DNA of 64,000 nt from Crambe crambe (lineage: Eukaryota; Porifera; Demospongiae; Poecilosclerida; Crambeidae). The stretch spans positions 9,339,338 through 9,403,337 of the forward strand of contig OZ004581.1 in assembly GCA_963924555.1 (NCBI GenBank), in the 5' to 3' direction. The notes below the pieces were generated by a model, which was not told the DNA's origin, did no database searches, and saw nothing but the letters and a program-made list of their open reading frames with translations. The number at the start of each line of letters is the position of its first letter. The stretch's first letter is position 1. The position numbers and the translations under genes were made by a program. Shown piece by piece: positions 19,159-29,412 of the stretch.

Positions 19159-19466
19159 TCACTCACACATCATATACCAAATATCAGTACAACCTACCAT
19201 ACAGTACTTTTGTTCAATGCTAGATGCAATATCTTTGCGGTTGACCAAAGGATCTCTGAGGGCTGTGCAGAGACTGTTCCAAGATGGTGGTTGACTTCCC
19301 TTCATCTTCAGCCACTGTTTGATGAGTTCTCTCATGCACCCATTGATGTCATTGGGGTTGTTGACTCCTATCTTCTCCACTTCAGCATCTGATAGTCCTA
19401 GGACAACTCCAAGGTCCTCCCATTCCTTTACTATGTCAATCAATGCTGTCCTCACATTGCGATAGG
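19159..19466 (-). other. C-terminal Death-domain exon
   Basis: About 100 codons with the Death-domain pattern VKEWEDLGVVLGLSDAEVEKI, then CMRELIKQWLKM, PSWNSLCTALRD and a last helix with IASSIEQKY. The tryptophans in the first and fourth helices and the PSW motif are typical. The frame ends at a TGA at 19159; an internal GTAGGT after the last helix could act as a donor to an unseen 3' exon. Confidence 0.85.
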
Positions 19467-22400: not shown

Positions 22401-25400
22401 TGTAGAGTTGATGGCAGTGCTAGTTGAGTGTGGATCATCAACTTTCGGTAAATGAGGTAACATGGATGGAACAAAATACTTCAAACCAGGACCCTTATGC
22501 TTTTCAGTACTGATTTTAGCAATAATCAAGAAATGCTCCAATAGATCCACAATCTGTTGAGGTTGCAACTTTTTTTGAGCTCTCAATACTTTTTGGTATA
22601 ATGTTTCTATCAGTATTCCATCCTCACGCAGCAATTTCCAGAGACGACTGTTTCTATATTCTTCTCGCCCTTCCAGTGCCAACAAACGGGCTATTTGTTT
22701 GACAAGCCATTGAGGGTCAGCAATGACACAAGACTTCAAGCTGGGGATGTCAGAGTAGTGAAAGAACACGGCAAGATCGTGATAAAATGTAAGAATGCTA
22801 GTAAGAGTATCTTCAGGGATTAGACATGCTCTACATAATTCCTTCACTTCCTCTAAAGGAACTACTGGCTTCTTTTGAGATCTAGCATATCTCTGGAACA
22901 CTTTCCTGAACAGCAACCAAGTGATTGGAGTACGAATAGCTAAATCTTCTGTTGCAAAGTTATTCACAATCATACGAATGAACTTAAAAGTGTCATCTTC
23001 AAGCTCTCCCATACCAGCTGTTGTGTTATCGACTATTGCTCCATCCAGAACAATGTCAGAAAAGGCTTTACCTGTTAATTCTGAAGAAAGCTTTTCAAGA
23101 ATCTCATGTTTTCTTTCCTTGACAGAAACATCGTCACCATGTGAACCAACAGGCAGAACGAGAGGATACTTGGGGACTTCTTCATCTTCATCACTTTCTT
23201 TATCTATAATGAGCCTCTTATTCAAGAGAGTAGCATGAATGGTGGATATCCACTGCACCATCAAGTCAAGTGTGGATATATCTTCTAGATGCTCAGTGGC
23301 TCTTCCTTTAAAATAGGTAAGACACTGATACTGATCATGGAGATCACGTCTGGCATCGAACATTAAGAGAAACAATGTCCTCGCTGTTAGGAATGCAGGA
23401 AGAATTTTAAGAAAAACTGGCTGGCCTCCACAATCCCACACATGCAGATAAACTTCCTCTTCAATAAATGGGTCAGCAGTGGTTATAACAGAAAGAATCT
23501 CTTTCAAAATCCCCTCAATCAATGGGTGGTCAAATTTGGGGGCAGTTTTACTAGGTTGATTTTTGTCACTGCTCACATCACTTCCTGTGGCAGAAATGGA
23601 ATCTTTGTGATCAAGAATAGTTTGTATCAACTGAGCAAGTCCTTTGATTTCATCAGCATCAGTTATTTTAGTCCAGAACTTTCCTTCCTGGCTGCAGGCC
23701 CAGTAACTCTCAGTGGGGCGGAGGGAGAACGTGTCAGCCACCTGGGTGCTGTAGGCTTCACAGGGAAGGGGCAGATTCATCAAGCCATTGAGTAGACTGC
23801 TCTTGCCCACACCTCCAGGACCAACGATCATCACACGAGCATATGCAACCTTCGTTTCACCCTGCCCCAGGGCATTCAGGTAATCCACTGAAGATCAAGC
23901 ATACAAAATAATTAATATCTATCAAAATAAAAATATTACCTTCAGTCCTTGAGGCTCGAGTCTCAATAAAAAAGAATTCAACATGGAAATTCAACATGGA
24001 AATAAAGTTGATTCACAAGTGAATTATGCACAAAAGACATACACTCACCACCTGAAAATATGAACACCACAACAGTGAAAGTATTGTACAGAGAGAAAGC
24101 TGACTCTCAGGTCATGACTCAATGTACGTGTTATGATTAACAATGCATTAATTTTGGTAGACATCATGTAAATAACAATGCAGAGAGTGAGTACGTTCAG
24201 AATAACTTACTCGCTGAAGGAATGAAATTAAGCATCAAAAGACGACAGTGAAGGTACAACAGGGTAAGAGAATAGACAGCATGTAAGTAACAATGCAGAG
24301 AGTGAGTACGTTCAGAATAACTTACCACCTGAAGGAATGAAATTAAGCATCAATATACGACGACAGGGAAAGAGAATAGACAGCATGTAAGTAACAATGC
24401 AGAGATTGAGTACGTTCAGAATAACTTACATCCTGAAGGAATGGAATTAAGCGTCAAAATACAACAGTGAAGGTACCACAGGGTAAGAGAATAGACAGCA
24501 TGTAAGTAACAATGCAAAGAGTGAGTACGTTCAGAATAACTTACCCCCTGAAGGAATGAATTTAAGCATCAAAATACGACGACAGGGTAAGAGAATAAAC
24601 AGCATGTAAGTAACAATGCAGAGAGTGAGTACGTTCAGAATAACTTACCACCTGAAGGAATGAAATTAAGCATCAATATACGACAACAGGGTAAGAGAAT
24701 AGACAGCATGTAAGTAACAATGCAGAGAGTGAGTACGTTCAGAATAACTTACCTCCTGAAGGAATGAAATTAAGCGTCAAAATACAACAGTGAAGGTACG
24801 GCAGGGTAAGAGAAAAGACAACATGTAAGTAACAATGCAGAGAGTGAGTCAGTTAAGAATAACTTACTCGCTGAAGGATGAAATTAAGCATCAAAATACG
24901 ATGACAGGGTAAGAGAATAGACAGCATGTAAGTAACAATGCAGAGAGTGAGTCAGTTCAGAATAACTTACTCGCTGAAGGAATGAAATTAAGCATCAAAG
25001 TACGACGACAGGGTAAGAGAATAGACAGCATGTAAGTAACAATGCAGAGAGTGAGTACGTTCAGAATAACTTACCAACTGAAGGAATGAAATTAAGCATC
25101 AAAACATGATCATGATAGTGAAGGTAAGAGAATAGACAGCATGTAAGTAACAATGCAGAGAGTGAATATGTTCAGAATAACTTACAAACTGAAGGAATGA
25201 AATTAAGCATCAAAACATGATCATGATAGTGAAGGTAAGACAGGGTAAGAGAATAGACAGCATGTAAGTAACAATGCAGAGAGTGAGTCAGTTCAGAATA
25301 ACTTACCTCCTGAAGGAATGAAATTAAGCGTCAAAATACAACAGTGAAGGTACAGCAGGGTAAGAGAATAGACAGCATGTAAGTAATGCTGCAGAGAGTG

Positions 25401-28400
25401 AGTCAGTTCAGAATAACTTACTGACTAAAGGAATGAAATTAAGCATCAAAAGACGACAGTGAAGGTACAACAGGGTAAGAGAATAGACAGCATGTAAGTA
25501 ACAATGCAGAGAGTGAGTACGTTCAGAATAACTTACCACCTGAAGGAATGAAATTAAGCATCAATATACGACGACAGGGTAAGAGAATAGACAGCATGTA
25601 AGTAACAATGCAGAGAGTGAGTACGTTCAGAATAACTTACCTCCTGAAGGAATGAAATTAAGCGTCAAAATACAACAGTGAAGGTATGGCAGGGTAAGAG
25701 AATAGACAGCATGTAAGTAACAATGCAGAGAGTGAGTACGTTCAGAATAACTTACCCCCTGAAGGAATGAAATTAAGCATCAAAATACGACGACAGGGTA
25801 AGAGAATAGACAGCATGTAAGTAACAATGCAGAGAGTGAGTCAGTTCAGAATAACTTACCTCCTGAAGGAATACAGTGAAGGTACGGCAGGGTAAGAGAA
25901 TAGACAGCATGTAAGTAACAATGCAGAGAGTGAGTCAGTTCAGAATAACTTACTCGCTGAAGGAATGAAATTAAGCATCAAAGTACGACGACAGGGTAAG
26001 AGAATAGACAGCATGTAAGTAACAATGCAGAGAGTGAGTACGTTCAGAATAACTTACCAACTGAAGGAATGAAATTAAGCATCAAAACATATTCATGATA
26101 GTGAAGGTAAGACAGGGTAAGAGAATAGACAGCATGTAAGTAACAATGCAGAGAGTGAGTCAGTTCAGAATAACTTACCTCATGAAGGAATGAAATTAAG
26201 CGTCAAAATACAACAGTGAAGGTACGGCAGGGTAAGAGAATAGACAGCATGTAAGTAACAATGCAGAGAGTGAATATGTTCAGAATAACTTACAAACTGA
26301 AGGAATGAAATTAAGCATCAAAATATGACAGTGAAGGTACAGCAGGGTAAGAGAATAGACAGCATGTAAGTAACAATGCAGAGAGTGAGTCAGTTCAGAA
26401 TAACTTACTCGCTGAAGGAATGAAATTAAGCATCAAAGTACGACGACAGGGTAAGAGAATAGACAGCATGTAAGTAACAATGCAGAGAGTGAGTACGTTC
26501 AGAATAACTTACCAACTGAAGGAATGAAATTAAGCATCAAAACATGATCATGATAGTGAAGGTAAGACAGGGTAAGAGAATAGACAGCATGTAAGTAACA
26601 ATGTAGAGAGTGAGTCAGTTCAGAATAACTTACCTCCTGAAGGAATGAAATTAAGCGTCAAAATACAACAGTGAAGGTACGGCAGGGTAAGAGAATAGAC
26701 AGCATGTAAGTAATGCTGCAGAGAGTGAGTCAGTTCAGAATAACTTACTGGCTAAAGGAATGAAATTAAGCATCAAAAGACGACAGTGAAGGTACAACAG
26801 GGTAAGAGAATAGACAGCATGTAAGTAACAATGCAGAGAGTGAGTACGTTCAGAATAACTTACCACCTGAAGGAATGAAATTAAGCATCAATATACGACG
26901 ACAGGGTAAGAGAATAGACAGCATGTAAGTAACAATGCAGAGAGTGAGTCAGTTCAGAATAACTTACCCCCTGAAGGAATGAAATTAAGCGTCGAAATAC
27001 GACGACAGGGTAAGAGAATAGACAGCATGTAAGTAACAATGCAGAGAGTGAGTCAGTTCAGAATAACTTACCCCCTGAAGGAATGAAATTAAGCGTCCAA
27101 ATACGACGACAGGGTAAGAGAATAGACAGCATGTAAGTAACAATGCAGAGAGTGAGTACGTTCAGAATAACTTACTCGCTGAAGGAATGAAATTAAGCAT
27201 CAAAGTACGACGACATGGTAAGAGAATAGACAGCATGTAAGTAACAATGCAGAGAATGAGTACGTTCAGAATAACTTACCAACTGAAGGAATGAAATTAA
27301 GCATCAAAACATGATCATAATAGTGAAGGTAAGACAGGGTAAGAGAATAGACAGCATGTAAGTAACAATGCAGAGAGTGAGTCAGTTCAGAATAACTTAC
27401 CTCCTGAAGGAATGAAATTAAGCGTCAAAATACAACAGTGAAGGTACGGCAGGGTAAGAGAATAGACAGCATGTAAGTAACAATGCAGAGAGTGAATATG
27501 TTCAGAATAACTTACAAACTGAAGGAATGAAATTAAGCATCAAAATACGACAGTGAAGGTACAGCAGAGTAAGAGAATAGACAGCATGTAAGTAACGATG
27601 CAGAGAGTGAGTCAGTTCAGAATAACTTACTCGCTGAAGGAATGAAATTAAGCATCAAAATACGACAACAGGGTAAAAGAATAGACAGCATGTAAGTAAC
27701 AATGCAGAGAGTGAGTACGTTCAGAATAACTTACCTCCTGAAGGAATGAAATTAAGCATCAAAATACAACAGTGAAGGTACGGCAGGGTAAGAGAATAGA
27801 CAGCATGTAAGTAACAATGCAGAGAGTGAATATGTTCAGAATAACTTACAAACTGAAGGAATGAAATTAAGCATCAAAATACGACAGTGAAGGTACAGCA
27901 GGGTAAGAGAATAGACAGCATGTAAGTAACAATGCAGAGAGTGAGTCAGTTCAGAATAACTTACTCGCTGAAGGAATGAAATTAAGCATCAAAATACGAC
28001 GACAGGGTAAGAGAATAGACAGCATGTAAGTAACAATGCAGAGAGTGAGTACGTTCAGAATAACTTACCAACTGAAGGAATGAAATTAAGCATCAAAATA
28101 CGACGACAGGGTAAGAGAATAGACAGCATGTAAGTAACAATGCAGAGAGTGAGTATGTTCAGAATAACTTACCGACTGAAGGAATGAAATTAAGCATCAA
28201 AATACGACAGTGAAGGTAAGACAGGGTAAGAGAAGAGACAGCATGTAAGTAACAATGCAGAGAGTGAGTACGTTCAGAATAACTTACCTCCTGAAGGAAT
28301 GAAATTAAGCATCAAAATACGACAGTAAAAGTACGGCAAGAGAACAGACAGCATGTAAGTAACAAAATGCAGAGAGTGAGTTTATTCAGAATAACTTACC

Positions 28401-29412
28401 CGCTGAAGGAATAAATTAAGCATCAGTGACAGTATGACAGGGTAAGAGAATAGACAGCATGTGAGTAACAATGTAGAGTGTGAGTTGGTTCAGAATAACT
28501 TACCCCCTGAAGGCATCAAAATACGACAGGGTAAGAGAATAGACAGCATGTAAGTAACAATGCAGAGAGTGAGTTTATTCAGAATAACTTACCCGCTGAA
28601 GAAATGAAATTAAGCATCAAAATACGACAATGAAGGTATGACAGGGTAAGAGAATAGACAGCATGTGAGTAACAATGTAGAGTATGAGTTGGTTCAGAAT
28701 AACTTACCATCTGAAGCATCAAAAACAATGAAGGTACGACAGGGTAAGAGAATAAACAGCATGTAAGTAATAGTGCTGAAAGTTGTCAAGAATAACTCAC
28801 ATCCTGAAGGATCTAAATATGTCAATGAAGGTATGACAGGGTAAGATAATGAGAAGTGATAAAACAATATGTTAATGAAGTATAAGTAATAACTTACCAG
28901 GAGAAGGGGTAATAAGTTCCAACATCAAATTGAGTGTGTATGGTGTGAAAGAACATGATGCCAAATATAATGTCAGTCTTGAATGACTCACCTCCTGAAA
29001 GAAAACATTGATACACATACTAACTAAAGGTCGTGATCATAACATAATTCAGCACTTTCTAATCAATAAATATTCCAGACACAATCTTGAAACCTCCTTC
29101 CTTTTTTGGTAAAGGGTTGACAAGTGAGAATTGGCCCCACCCGTACGTACACATGGGCCACATAGGTACACTGCAGTACAGCACAAGCTGCACTTCAGGT
29201 GAGGAAGGAATGAGCTTCCAAGTCATTACCAGTGGGTTGCATTGGTACACCCTCTATAATCAATACTCCACAACTAAATGAGCTGTCACACCCTAGTCCC
29301 TAGTCCCTAGCTACCTTTTTCATGTGAATACACTCACAAAGTATGGTTCAGCTCTGCTAGAAGTACCCTTCTTCTCTGCTTCTTCATTCTCTTCACCTTT
29401 TTTATCACTCAT
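19159..29412 (-). CDS. Roc-COR GTPase with two Death domains, coiled coil and a microexon array (spliced gene)
   Basis: Twelve ordinary exons: 29412-29338, 23961-23940, 23887-21918, 21838-21609, 21525-21419, 21360-21269, 21211-21154, 20937-20912, 20860-20740, 20652-20540, 20474-20432 and 19466-19159. All junctions are GT-AG, phases agree, and lengths sum to 3165 bases, 1054 codons plus stop. Order: charged N-terminus, Roc domain (GPGGVGKS P-loop, WDCGGQP switch II), COR domain, Death fold, coiled coil, Pro/Gln/Ser linker, Death domain. Such Roco proteins are GTP-dependent signalling scaffolds, and Death domains recruit partners in apoptosis or innate immunity (family knowledge). The first intron holds 46 candidate one-codon exons, each keeping phase. 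Reading on past the 21609 donor gives TGA at 21599, so a shorter form ending after the first Death domain is possible. Ligand and pathway are unknown. Confidence 0.85.
20084..20201. mobile_element. Small Tc1/mariner-like MITE
   Basis: A 118-bp AT-rich segment starts TACTGTATAGCG and ends CGCTATATGGTA, imperfect terminal inverted repeats bounded by TA dinucleotides. Internal ttttcgtgg motifs are typical of this kind of miniature element. It sits in an intron of the Roc-COR-Death gene. Confidence 0.6.
20233..20335. repeat. 18-bp minisatellite, about 6 copies
   Basis: Repeats of ggtggtctcttaatggag with a/g changes, in the intron before the C-terminal Death exon. Related single motifs (agagaccacctcc) occur near 17885 and 19935. 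Confidence 0.9.
20432..21525 (-). other. Coiled-coil and linker exons
   Basis: Seven small exons. Three code charged helices: EHYESLKDREIHEKNKEIDQL, QLSKEGKEIDQLKKEFKK, and a triple repeat of EKDREI. They alternate with Ser/Pro/Gln-rich pieces and an alanine-rich 26-nt exon. All junction phases agree (starts 2,1,0,1,0,1,0; only the joins matter and they fit). The repeating GluLysAspArgGluIle unit suggests a short oligomerising coiled coil that can be lengthened or shortened by exon choice. Confidence 0.7.
21609..21838 (-). other. First Death-fold exon
   Basis: After a long poly-T acceptor, about 76 codons form a helical segment (ELAKALEMSEHLLFINNDA, LLDLWQEEM, LLQHLNSIGIQDM) with the Leu/Trp spacing of Death-fold domains. 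Two donors lie close together (GTACTT at 21608 and GTGATG a few bases further); both give the phase needed by the next exon at 21525. Read-through ends at TGA 21599. Confidence 0.65.
21842..21861. repeat. Poly-A run (poly-T on the gene strand)
   Basis: About 20 adenines form the polypyrimidine tract of the first Death exon acceptor. Length variation here could affect splicing. Confidence 0.9.
21918..23887 (-). other. Roc-COR exon (656 codons)
   Basis: One long exon codes the whole GTPase and COR region. G1 is GPGGVGKS about 23 residues in, G3 is WDCGGQP, and the G4 position reads PVGSHGDD instead of the canonical NKxD. The COR part begins about RTPITWLLFRKVFQRYA and includes IADPQWLVKQIARLLA. 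A CEGCPQRDH cysteine cluster stands near the end. Lys and Ser of the P-loop are present, so nucleotide binding is plausible. Confidence 0.9.
23940..23961 (-). other. 22-nt exon joining the array to the Roc exon
   Basis: Between attcttttttattgag and the donor gtaatatt lie 22 bases coding Thr-Arg-Ala-Ser-Arg-Thr-Glu plus one base. That extra base completes the valine codon with the first two bases of the Roc exon. This is what makes the phase of exon 1 (0), the 3-nt units (0) and the Roc exon (1) compatible. The acceptor ends in GAG rather than CAG. Confidence 0.7.
24041..28998 (-). repeat. Tandem array of 46 candidate 3-nt microexons
   Basis: Units of mostly 104, 115 or 121 bp. Gene-strand consensus: a possible branch site tgcttaat, tttcattccttcag, three variable bases, gtaagttattctgaac. 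Variable triplets (plus-strand left base, sense codon): 24049 GTG; 24211 CGA; 24326 GTG; 24430 GAT; 24545 GGG; 24649 GTG; 24753 GAG; 24868 CGA; 24971 CGA; 25075 TTG; 25186 TTT; 25307 GAG; 25422 TCA; 25537 GTG; 25641 GAG; 25756 GGG; 25860 GAG; 25954 CGA; 26058 TTG; 26179 GAG (acceptor CAT); 26294 TTT; 26409 CGA; 26513 TTG; 26634 GAG; 26749 CCA; 26864 GTG; 26968 GGG; 27072 GGG; 27176 CGA; 27280 TTG; 27401 GAG; 27516 TTT; 27631 CGA; 27735 GAG; 27850 TTT; 27965 CGA; 28069 TTG; 28173 TCG; 28288 GAG; 28400 CGG; 28504 GGG; 28593 CGG; 28708 ATG; 28801 GAT; 28898 CTG (no acceptor AG); 28992 GAG. Use as exons is inference. Confidence 0.85.
29338..29412 (-). other. Exon 1 of the Roc-COR-Death gene
   Basis: ATG at 29412 begins 25 codons of a charged Lys/Glu-rich N-terminus ending in Glu-Pro-Tyr-Phe at a GTGAGT donor (phase 0). 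There is no signal peptide, so the product should be cytosolic. The next splice partner downstream is the microexon array or, by skipping it, the exon at 23961. Confidence 0.75.

Follow-up and report, generated by a model that had tools for sequence, protein, structure and literature searches.

The closest described counterparts of the gene structure reported here are the micro-exon genes (MEGs) of Schistosoma, in which very short exons, mostly multiples of three in length, stand in tandem between longer end exons, so that skipping keeps the reading frame. These exons measure 6-81 bp (3-81 in its abstract) and mostly 15 bp, number 10-20 per gene, are separated by introns of up to ~5 kb and encode secreted proteins (PMC10526429). 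Isolated exons of 3 nt occur in mouse Ncam and Drosophila TnT, and an exon of 1 nt occurs in Arabidopsis APC11 (PMC8042270, PMC4674806), for which intron definition and stepwise splicing have been proposed (PMC4674806). The three examples show that exons so short can be spliced, but they are single exons and not arrays. Drosophila ratchet points (PMC8605326) likewise have an adjoining acceptor and donor, and a splicing step there regenerates a donor; in them AG abuts GT with zero bases between, and as a rule nothing is left in the mRNA. Here we describe a candidate array of one-codon exons in a Roc-COR-Death gene of the sponge Crambe crambe, found in a window of 64,000 nucleotides (GCA_963924555.1, contig OZ004581.1, positions 9,339,338 to 9,403,337), together with related arrays elsewhere in the same genome.

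The exon structure of these genes resembles that of MEGs, whose tandem exons do not exceed ~36-81 nt and are mostly multiples of three: here candidate exons of 3 nt stand in tandem between longer ends, an exon 1 of 75 nt and a Roc-COR exon of ~2 kb. Unlike in MEGs, each exon read is a single codon, there are up to ~300 per gene, the introns are near-identical at ~110 nt, and the genes are of Roc-COR or ZU5 type. Exon 1, which reads MSDKKGEENEEAEKKGTSSRAEPYF, is charged and by eye has no signal peptide; Roc, COR and Death are intracellular domain types. In every unit counted, three bases lie between AG and GT where ratchet points have none, and the intervening codon would be kept. Dscam-type arrays hold tens of homologous tandem exons in one gene; these have the size of a domain, exclude one another and come with docking and selector sequences. 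The exons described here are likewise tandem and homologous, but are one codon each, and the choice of one is not favoured. No description of arrays of one-codon exons was found in the literature, as covered by titles, abstracts and open-licence papers from partial result lists. Provided that the codons are included in the mRNA, as their sequence context suggests, the structure is an extreme form of micro-exon gene structure, well past any example known to us.

The features of the window gene are listed in Table 1. In the array interval of the minus strand there are 46 GT(A/G)AGT donors, excluding that of exon 1, and an AG stands exactly three bases ahead of the donor in 44 of them (triplets 28994-28992 to 24051-24049). 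The preliminary description had counted 46 one-codon units with 13 different triplets; 44 prove to be intact, head and tail units included, the other two (donors 28897 and 26178) are degenerate and have no AG, and the intact units carry 12 triplets, which encode the same ten residues as described (E, R, G, L, V, F, D, M, S and P). Introns of the main array measure 86-118 nt, and the head triplet is GAG in all seven arrays looked at. The phase compatibility noted earlier is borne out, with exon 1 ending in phase 0 and the 22-nt exon starting in phase 0 in the Roc-COR frame, because its last base starts a GTG codon that is finished by the Roc-COR exon. Fifteen exact copies of this 22-nt exon type exist genome-wide, and the intron that precedes the Roc-COR exon is 52 nt. 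Matches to PF08477, PF16095 and PF00531 are all above cut-offs; Roc and COR share one exon and the Death domain lies downstream, a ROCO-with-Death-domain layout if, as we assume, all domains belong to one transcript. Elsewhere in the window, a matrix built from the array units detected nothing on either strand, and on 200 kb of the same contig it detected 567 units on the gene strand and none on the opposite strand. The candidate array in a Roc-COR-Death gene is supported, and the arrangement extends far beyond what is visible in the window.

The gene-linked arrays read are nine in number and together hold 1,001 detected units: 568 on contig 1 (43 of them in the window), 66 from a partial array (L034), 299 at a ZU5 locus and 68 on contig 11. 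Of the 888 site pairs scored, 882 enclose an exon of 3 nt, with 519/523 on 200 kb of contig 1, 295/297 at the ZU5 locus and 68/68 on contig 11; the four exceptions on the 200 kb (4, 7, 7 and 9 nt) are by eye register effects. In contrast to the fixed exons, intron lengths range from 57 to 1010 nt, with medians of 108-112 nt. In the 568 contig-1 units, deviations were counted at 3 of 2,272 AG/GT sites and, for comparison, at 2,829 of 24,992 sites (11%) from intron positions +7 to +50. The detection matrix itself weights AG/GT, yet its threshold still detects units that lost AG.

The triplet is the part of the unit that varies most. The earlier observation of hardly varying flanks and variable triplets holds across the 568 units, where column diversity (1 minus summed squared base frequencies) is 0.74, 0.69 and 0.55 at the three triplet positions, ~0 at AG/GT, and between 0.05 and 0.3 at most other positions. 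In a minimum spanning tree built on the flanks, per-site triplet differences are 9.9 times those of the flanks (2.9 to 11.1 in single gene-linked arrays), and the triplet changes on 270 of 567 edges, by two bases in 120 and by three in 72; 71 of the 78 single-base changes are nonsynonymous. Among pairs of units with identical 21+40-nt flanks, triplets differ in 1,451 of 2,074. Within arrays, 44 syntenic runs differ at 0.8% of intron sites and 3.2% of triplet sites; a single run contributes 12 of the 28 triplet differences, and there are none in the longest runs. Higher-order repeats duplicate intron and exon jointly. Our reading is that exchange homogenises the introns, whereas differences between codons are retained or favoured. 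An intron dinucleotide ~17 bases past the exon (GAAC-NN-AC) varies nearly as much as the codon (0.68 and 0.59), with hardly any variation at its neighbours.

No stop codon occurs among the 1,001 gene-linked units, which use 41 triplet types, with GAG accounting for 220. From the base composition at each position, 107 stops would be expected among the 867 units of contig 1 and the ZU5 locus, a figure that overstates the test because units are duplicates. The absence of stops among the 78 single-step changes on the tree gives log10 P=-2.8. Thirteen of the 23 absent triplet types end in C, the rarest third base (0.7% of contig-1 units), and the presence of all three stops among the 10 absent of the 48 triplets that do not end in C has P=0.007. 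In genome-wide searches with exact patterns, TRR triplets number 27, all TGG; TAR triplets number zero; and CAR triplets comprise 38 CAA and 12 CAG. Avoidance of CAG was considered as proof of acceptor use, with 1 CAG against 45 CAA at the contig-1 and ZU5 loci read, but is weaker genome-wide (12 against 38), and CAG was kept only as a control for TAG.

Table 1. Features of the Roc-COR-Death gene and its candidate one-codon exons (positions in the window).
Feature	Position	Strand	Remarks
Exon 1, 75 nt, MSDKKGEENEEAEKKGTSSRAEPYF	29338..29412	(-)	Ends phase 0 at GTGAGT donor
Head one-codon exon, GAG (E)	28992..28994	(-)	Own non-repeat flanks
Degenerate unit	28898..28900	(-)	Triplet preceding donor at 28897; AG absent three bases before donor
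Main array, 42 intact AG-NNN-GT(A/G)AGT units	24211..28803	(-)	Plus one AG-less unit at 26179-26181
GAG triplet of AG-less unit	26179..26181	(-)	Acceptor AG lost (CTTCAT precedes); donor at 26178
Tail one-codon exon, GTG (V)	24049..24051	(-)	Own flanks
22-nt exon, TRASRTE + 1 base	23940..23961	(-)	Phase 0 in, phase 1 out
Roc-COR exon, ~657 aa	21918..23887	(-)	Roc PF08477, COR-A PF16095
Death domain PF00531 in downstream open frame	19210..19431	(-)	Profile match

The extent of the family was determined in the whole genome assembly (143 Mb, 119 contigs). A 31-base unit core with a free triplet has 1,503 exact occurrences, 120 on one strand and 1,383 on the other; outside this genome, the pattern has one single match in bacterial and archaeal genomes, where ~0.5 chance matches are expected, and one in viral contigs. 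Roc-COR paralogues with 84-100% identity occupy 23 loci on contig 1 (C1) between 8.14 and 9.36 Mb, all on the minus strand. The end of exon 1 has 29 exact copies, 27 on the minus strand and two on the plus strand at 6.64 and 6.71 Mb. Such a copy lies within 25 kb upstream at 18 of the 23 Roc-COR loci and at 38 and 63 kb at two more; the remaining three have no exact copy before the next Roc-COR locus, and one of these (8138530) has a diverged exon 1. A 75-nt, phase-0 homologue of exon 1 is present at all five contig-1 Roc-COR genes read and also at the ZU5 gene. In C1:8136001-8336000 there are six arrays with 94, 85, 44, 42, 135 and 167 detected units, counts that leave out head units and most tail units, and five of the six lead to Roc-COR exons. 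Two other Roc-COR genes (L030 and L031) show no array in the 5 kb upstream, where a loose pattern gave 3 and 2 matches. One paralogue (C1:9054998-9056839) has an in-frame TGA in its Roc-COR exon; the 66 upstream units read, those of the partial array L034, show no stop and no lost AG.

Near 7.13-7.28 Mb of contig 11 (C11), Roc-COR genes at ~45% identity have arrays built from a different unit, of which there are 298 exact copies. In the one array read there (L029+L038, C11:7161800-7172299), all 68 site pairs are 3 nt apart, no stop occurs and the next exon is in phase 0. The introns of the two clusters align with a score of 130, where shuffles reach 67 plus or minus 6, and this homology implies that the arrangement either existed before the two families diverged or was transferred from one to the other. 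The third base of the contig-11 one-codon exons is nearly always T, which by itself rules out stops; G and A predominate at this position on contig 1. The same module also occurs at a second type of gene: on the plus strand of C1:6.636-6.672 Mb, the same exon 1 and head units are followed by 299 detected units, coil-like exons and a ZU5 domain (PF00791, E=3.9e-7), with a commonest unit length of 115 (218 of 298 spacings). Judging from their order and phase, exon 1, the ~300-unit array, the coil-like exons and the ZU5 domain would belong to one transcript.

We think it probable, with some reservation, that each array is a run of functional one-codon exons that would be spliced stepwise and in order into a linker. 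The preliminary description had offered two outcomes, the mutually exclusive choice of one residue and the full inclusion of a linker, and the second appears to fit better, because there are no stops in 1,001 units, both splice sites are kept almost everywhere and the in-order translations are charged and linker-like; most of the codons would then be included together. The tandem unit may be regarded as an intron of ~100-112 nt plus a 3-nt exon, and unequal exchange between near-identical introns would add or remove whole units, so that whole codons would move and the frame would never be shifted. The introns would be removed by intron definition, which can work since they are of ordinary size beside the 52-nt intron of the same gene, and probably stepwise, starting at exon 1. 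Simultaneous binding of both splice sites of one exon is hard to envisage over a distance of 3 nt, which favours stepwise splicing with each junction exposing the next donor. Once exon 1 was joined to the first triplet, the next GTAAGT would stand three bases past the junction and could pair with the next AG, and each step would resemble a recursive-splicing ratchet, with one codon left behind rather than none. The predicted product is a linker of tens to ~300 residues in genomic order between the conserved N-terminal 25 residues and the Roc-COR (or ZU5) part. A missed step would do no more than shorten the linker, since skipping any unit keeps the frame, and some variation in mRNA length would be expected. 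On the fuller proposal of codon-by-codon splicing, in which hundreds of one-codon exons are ratcheted in order, one-residue units are heritable, unequal exchange lets entire gene families extend, trim and recompose a stretch of protein residue by residue, and skipping to varying degrees yields linkers of different lengths from one gene, our judgement is evenly balanced.

Translated in genomic order, the arrays give charged, linker-like sequences, each gene with its own composition, for example RREEKLEKSKWELWLKELELKEE, DRLESRERLRERLRELLVGSTEE, DDWDEDRSRDNDYDDDDNDYDS and EREQKRLFEKQKRLFELQKEEE; 'linker-like' is an impression, and tests of helix periodicity were mostly negative. Helix or heptad periodicity was accordingly dropped as proof of in-order reading. 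The repeat was also considered as an unspliced protein, with sense frames of up to 180 aa at the ZU5 locus, and rejected, as the frame is lost from unit to unit because the usual unit length of 115 is no multiple of three.

Several results weigh against ordered inclusion. A Fourier test for helix or heptad periodicity gave no significant result in the 9 arrays examined (lowest P 0.27), and an i+3/i+4/i+7 statistic gave P=0.01, 0.05, 0.06, 0.10, 0.29, 0.31, 0.39 and 0.88 for eight gene-linked arrays and 0.67 for an array without a gene. The spliced product was not found in two protein-library searches, of which one gave 353 matches and the other none, and the seven matches that were read have no array-like linker. 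A series of ~300 introns would demand very efficient splicing. In one array (8163), the triplet excess over the flanks is only 2.9-fold. Splicing alone might avoid stops, because TAA or TGA behind a CAG gives rise to an additional, overlapping donor, and TAG to an acceptor in tandem with the first. CAG triplets, which also form a tandem acceptor, are tolerated (12 genome-wide with exact flanks) though TAG never occurs, and TGG is tolerated as well (27); however, arrays assignable to a Roc-COR or ZU5 gene hold no more than 5 of these 12 CAG and 3 of these 27 TGG. Stops are therefore also lacking from unassigned exact-flank arrays, which either form part of other genes or make the argument weaker. 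The last points come from an orphan array, described next, whose triplets vary 4.1 times as much as its flanks and whose AG/GT deviates at 4 of 168 sites against 262 of 1,848 in its introns, so that its splice sites are better kept than its introns.

This orphan array (L018, C1:8226001-8236000) runs from 8234213 to 8229280 with 42 units, an exon-1-like stretch and a head unit, and no Roc-COR exon was found before the array of the next gene. It contains one TGA triplet, the only stop found, and four lost AGs in its 42 units, an AG/GT loss beyond that of the gene-linked arrays (Fisher P=6e-4), and this contrast speaks for functional one-codon exons in the latter. That arrays without a known gene exist, and that this one keeps variable triplets, would be expected if the arrays were a non-coding tandem repeat in intron 1 whose splice sites, if used, were ratchet points or decoys, with exon 1 joined to the 22-nt exon without triplets. 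Those two exons are indeed in phase without any triplet, and constraints at the level of splicing could by themselves exclude TAA, TGA and TAG. A repeat of this kind leaves it unexplained that exon length stays exactly 3 nt and that CAG is tolerated where TAG is not; moreover, a ratchet role alone needs no varied triplets, and the homologous contig-11 arrays obey the 3-nt rule. We consider a non-coding repeat unlikely.

If instead one or a few one-codon exons were chosen per transcript, in a mutually exclusive or stochastic manner, the result would be a varied residue or short tag ahead of the GTPase, and the diverse triplets between near-identical flanks do resemble alternative-exon arrays, in which stop avoidance would be expected too. 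Some 300 one-residue options, however, yield little diversity when many triplets repeat, a good acceptor and donor in every unit at ordinary intron distance favour the joining of neighbours, and the in-order sequences resemble linkers, so that we hold such a choice to be improbable. Introners are a known source of mass intron gain, and the near-identity of the introns could suggest that introner-like mobile introns were inserted at every codon boundary of an older continuous linker exon. Insertion predicts varied exon lengths and phases rather than the 3 nt and phase 0 that are seen, exact copies are confined to the C1 and C11 clusters and not scattered (among the matches listed, the first 100 per search), and intron and exon are duplicated together in the higher-order repeats; this origin seems to us very improbable indeed.

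Were stepwise ordered inclusion to hold true, the arrangement could fairly be called categorically new, with exons reduced to the size of one codon on a massive scale. It would put to the test how the spliceosome copes, ~300 times per transcript, with splice sites separated by three bases, and whether ratchet splicing along an array is feasible, and it would be a case of protein evolution through single-residue duplications that are unable to break the frame. Such arrays would escape aligners and gene predictors with a higher minimum exon length, so similar ones could hide in other genomes. As a guess, the expanded Death-domain gene families may serve immunity.

Some exon-1 copies stand apart from the Roc-COR genes. 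Seven of the 27 on the minus strand (8628907, 8787184, 8794429, 8833286, 8899004, 9175416 and 9278079) are not the nearest to any Roc-COR exon, and the plus-strand copy at 6706723 is likewise without an assigned one; these copies may belong to gene types beyond those described or to genes in decay. Translated in order, the orphan array is rich in tryptophan, and TGG triplets near 8.38 Mb have nearly the same spacing as those of the orphan array, so that a copy of it may lie there.

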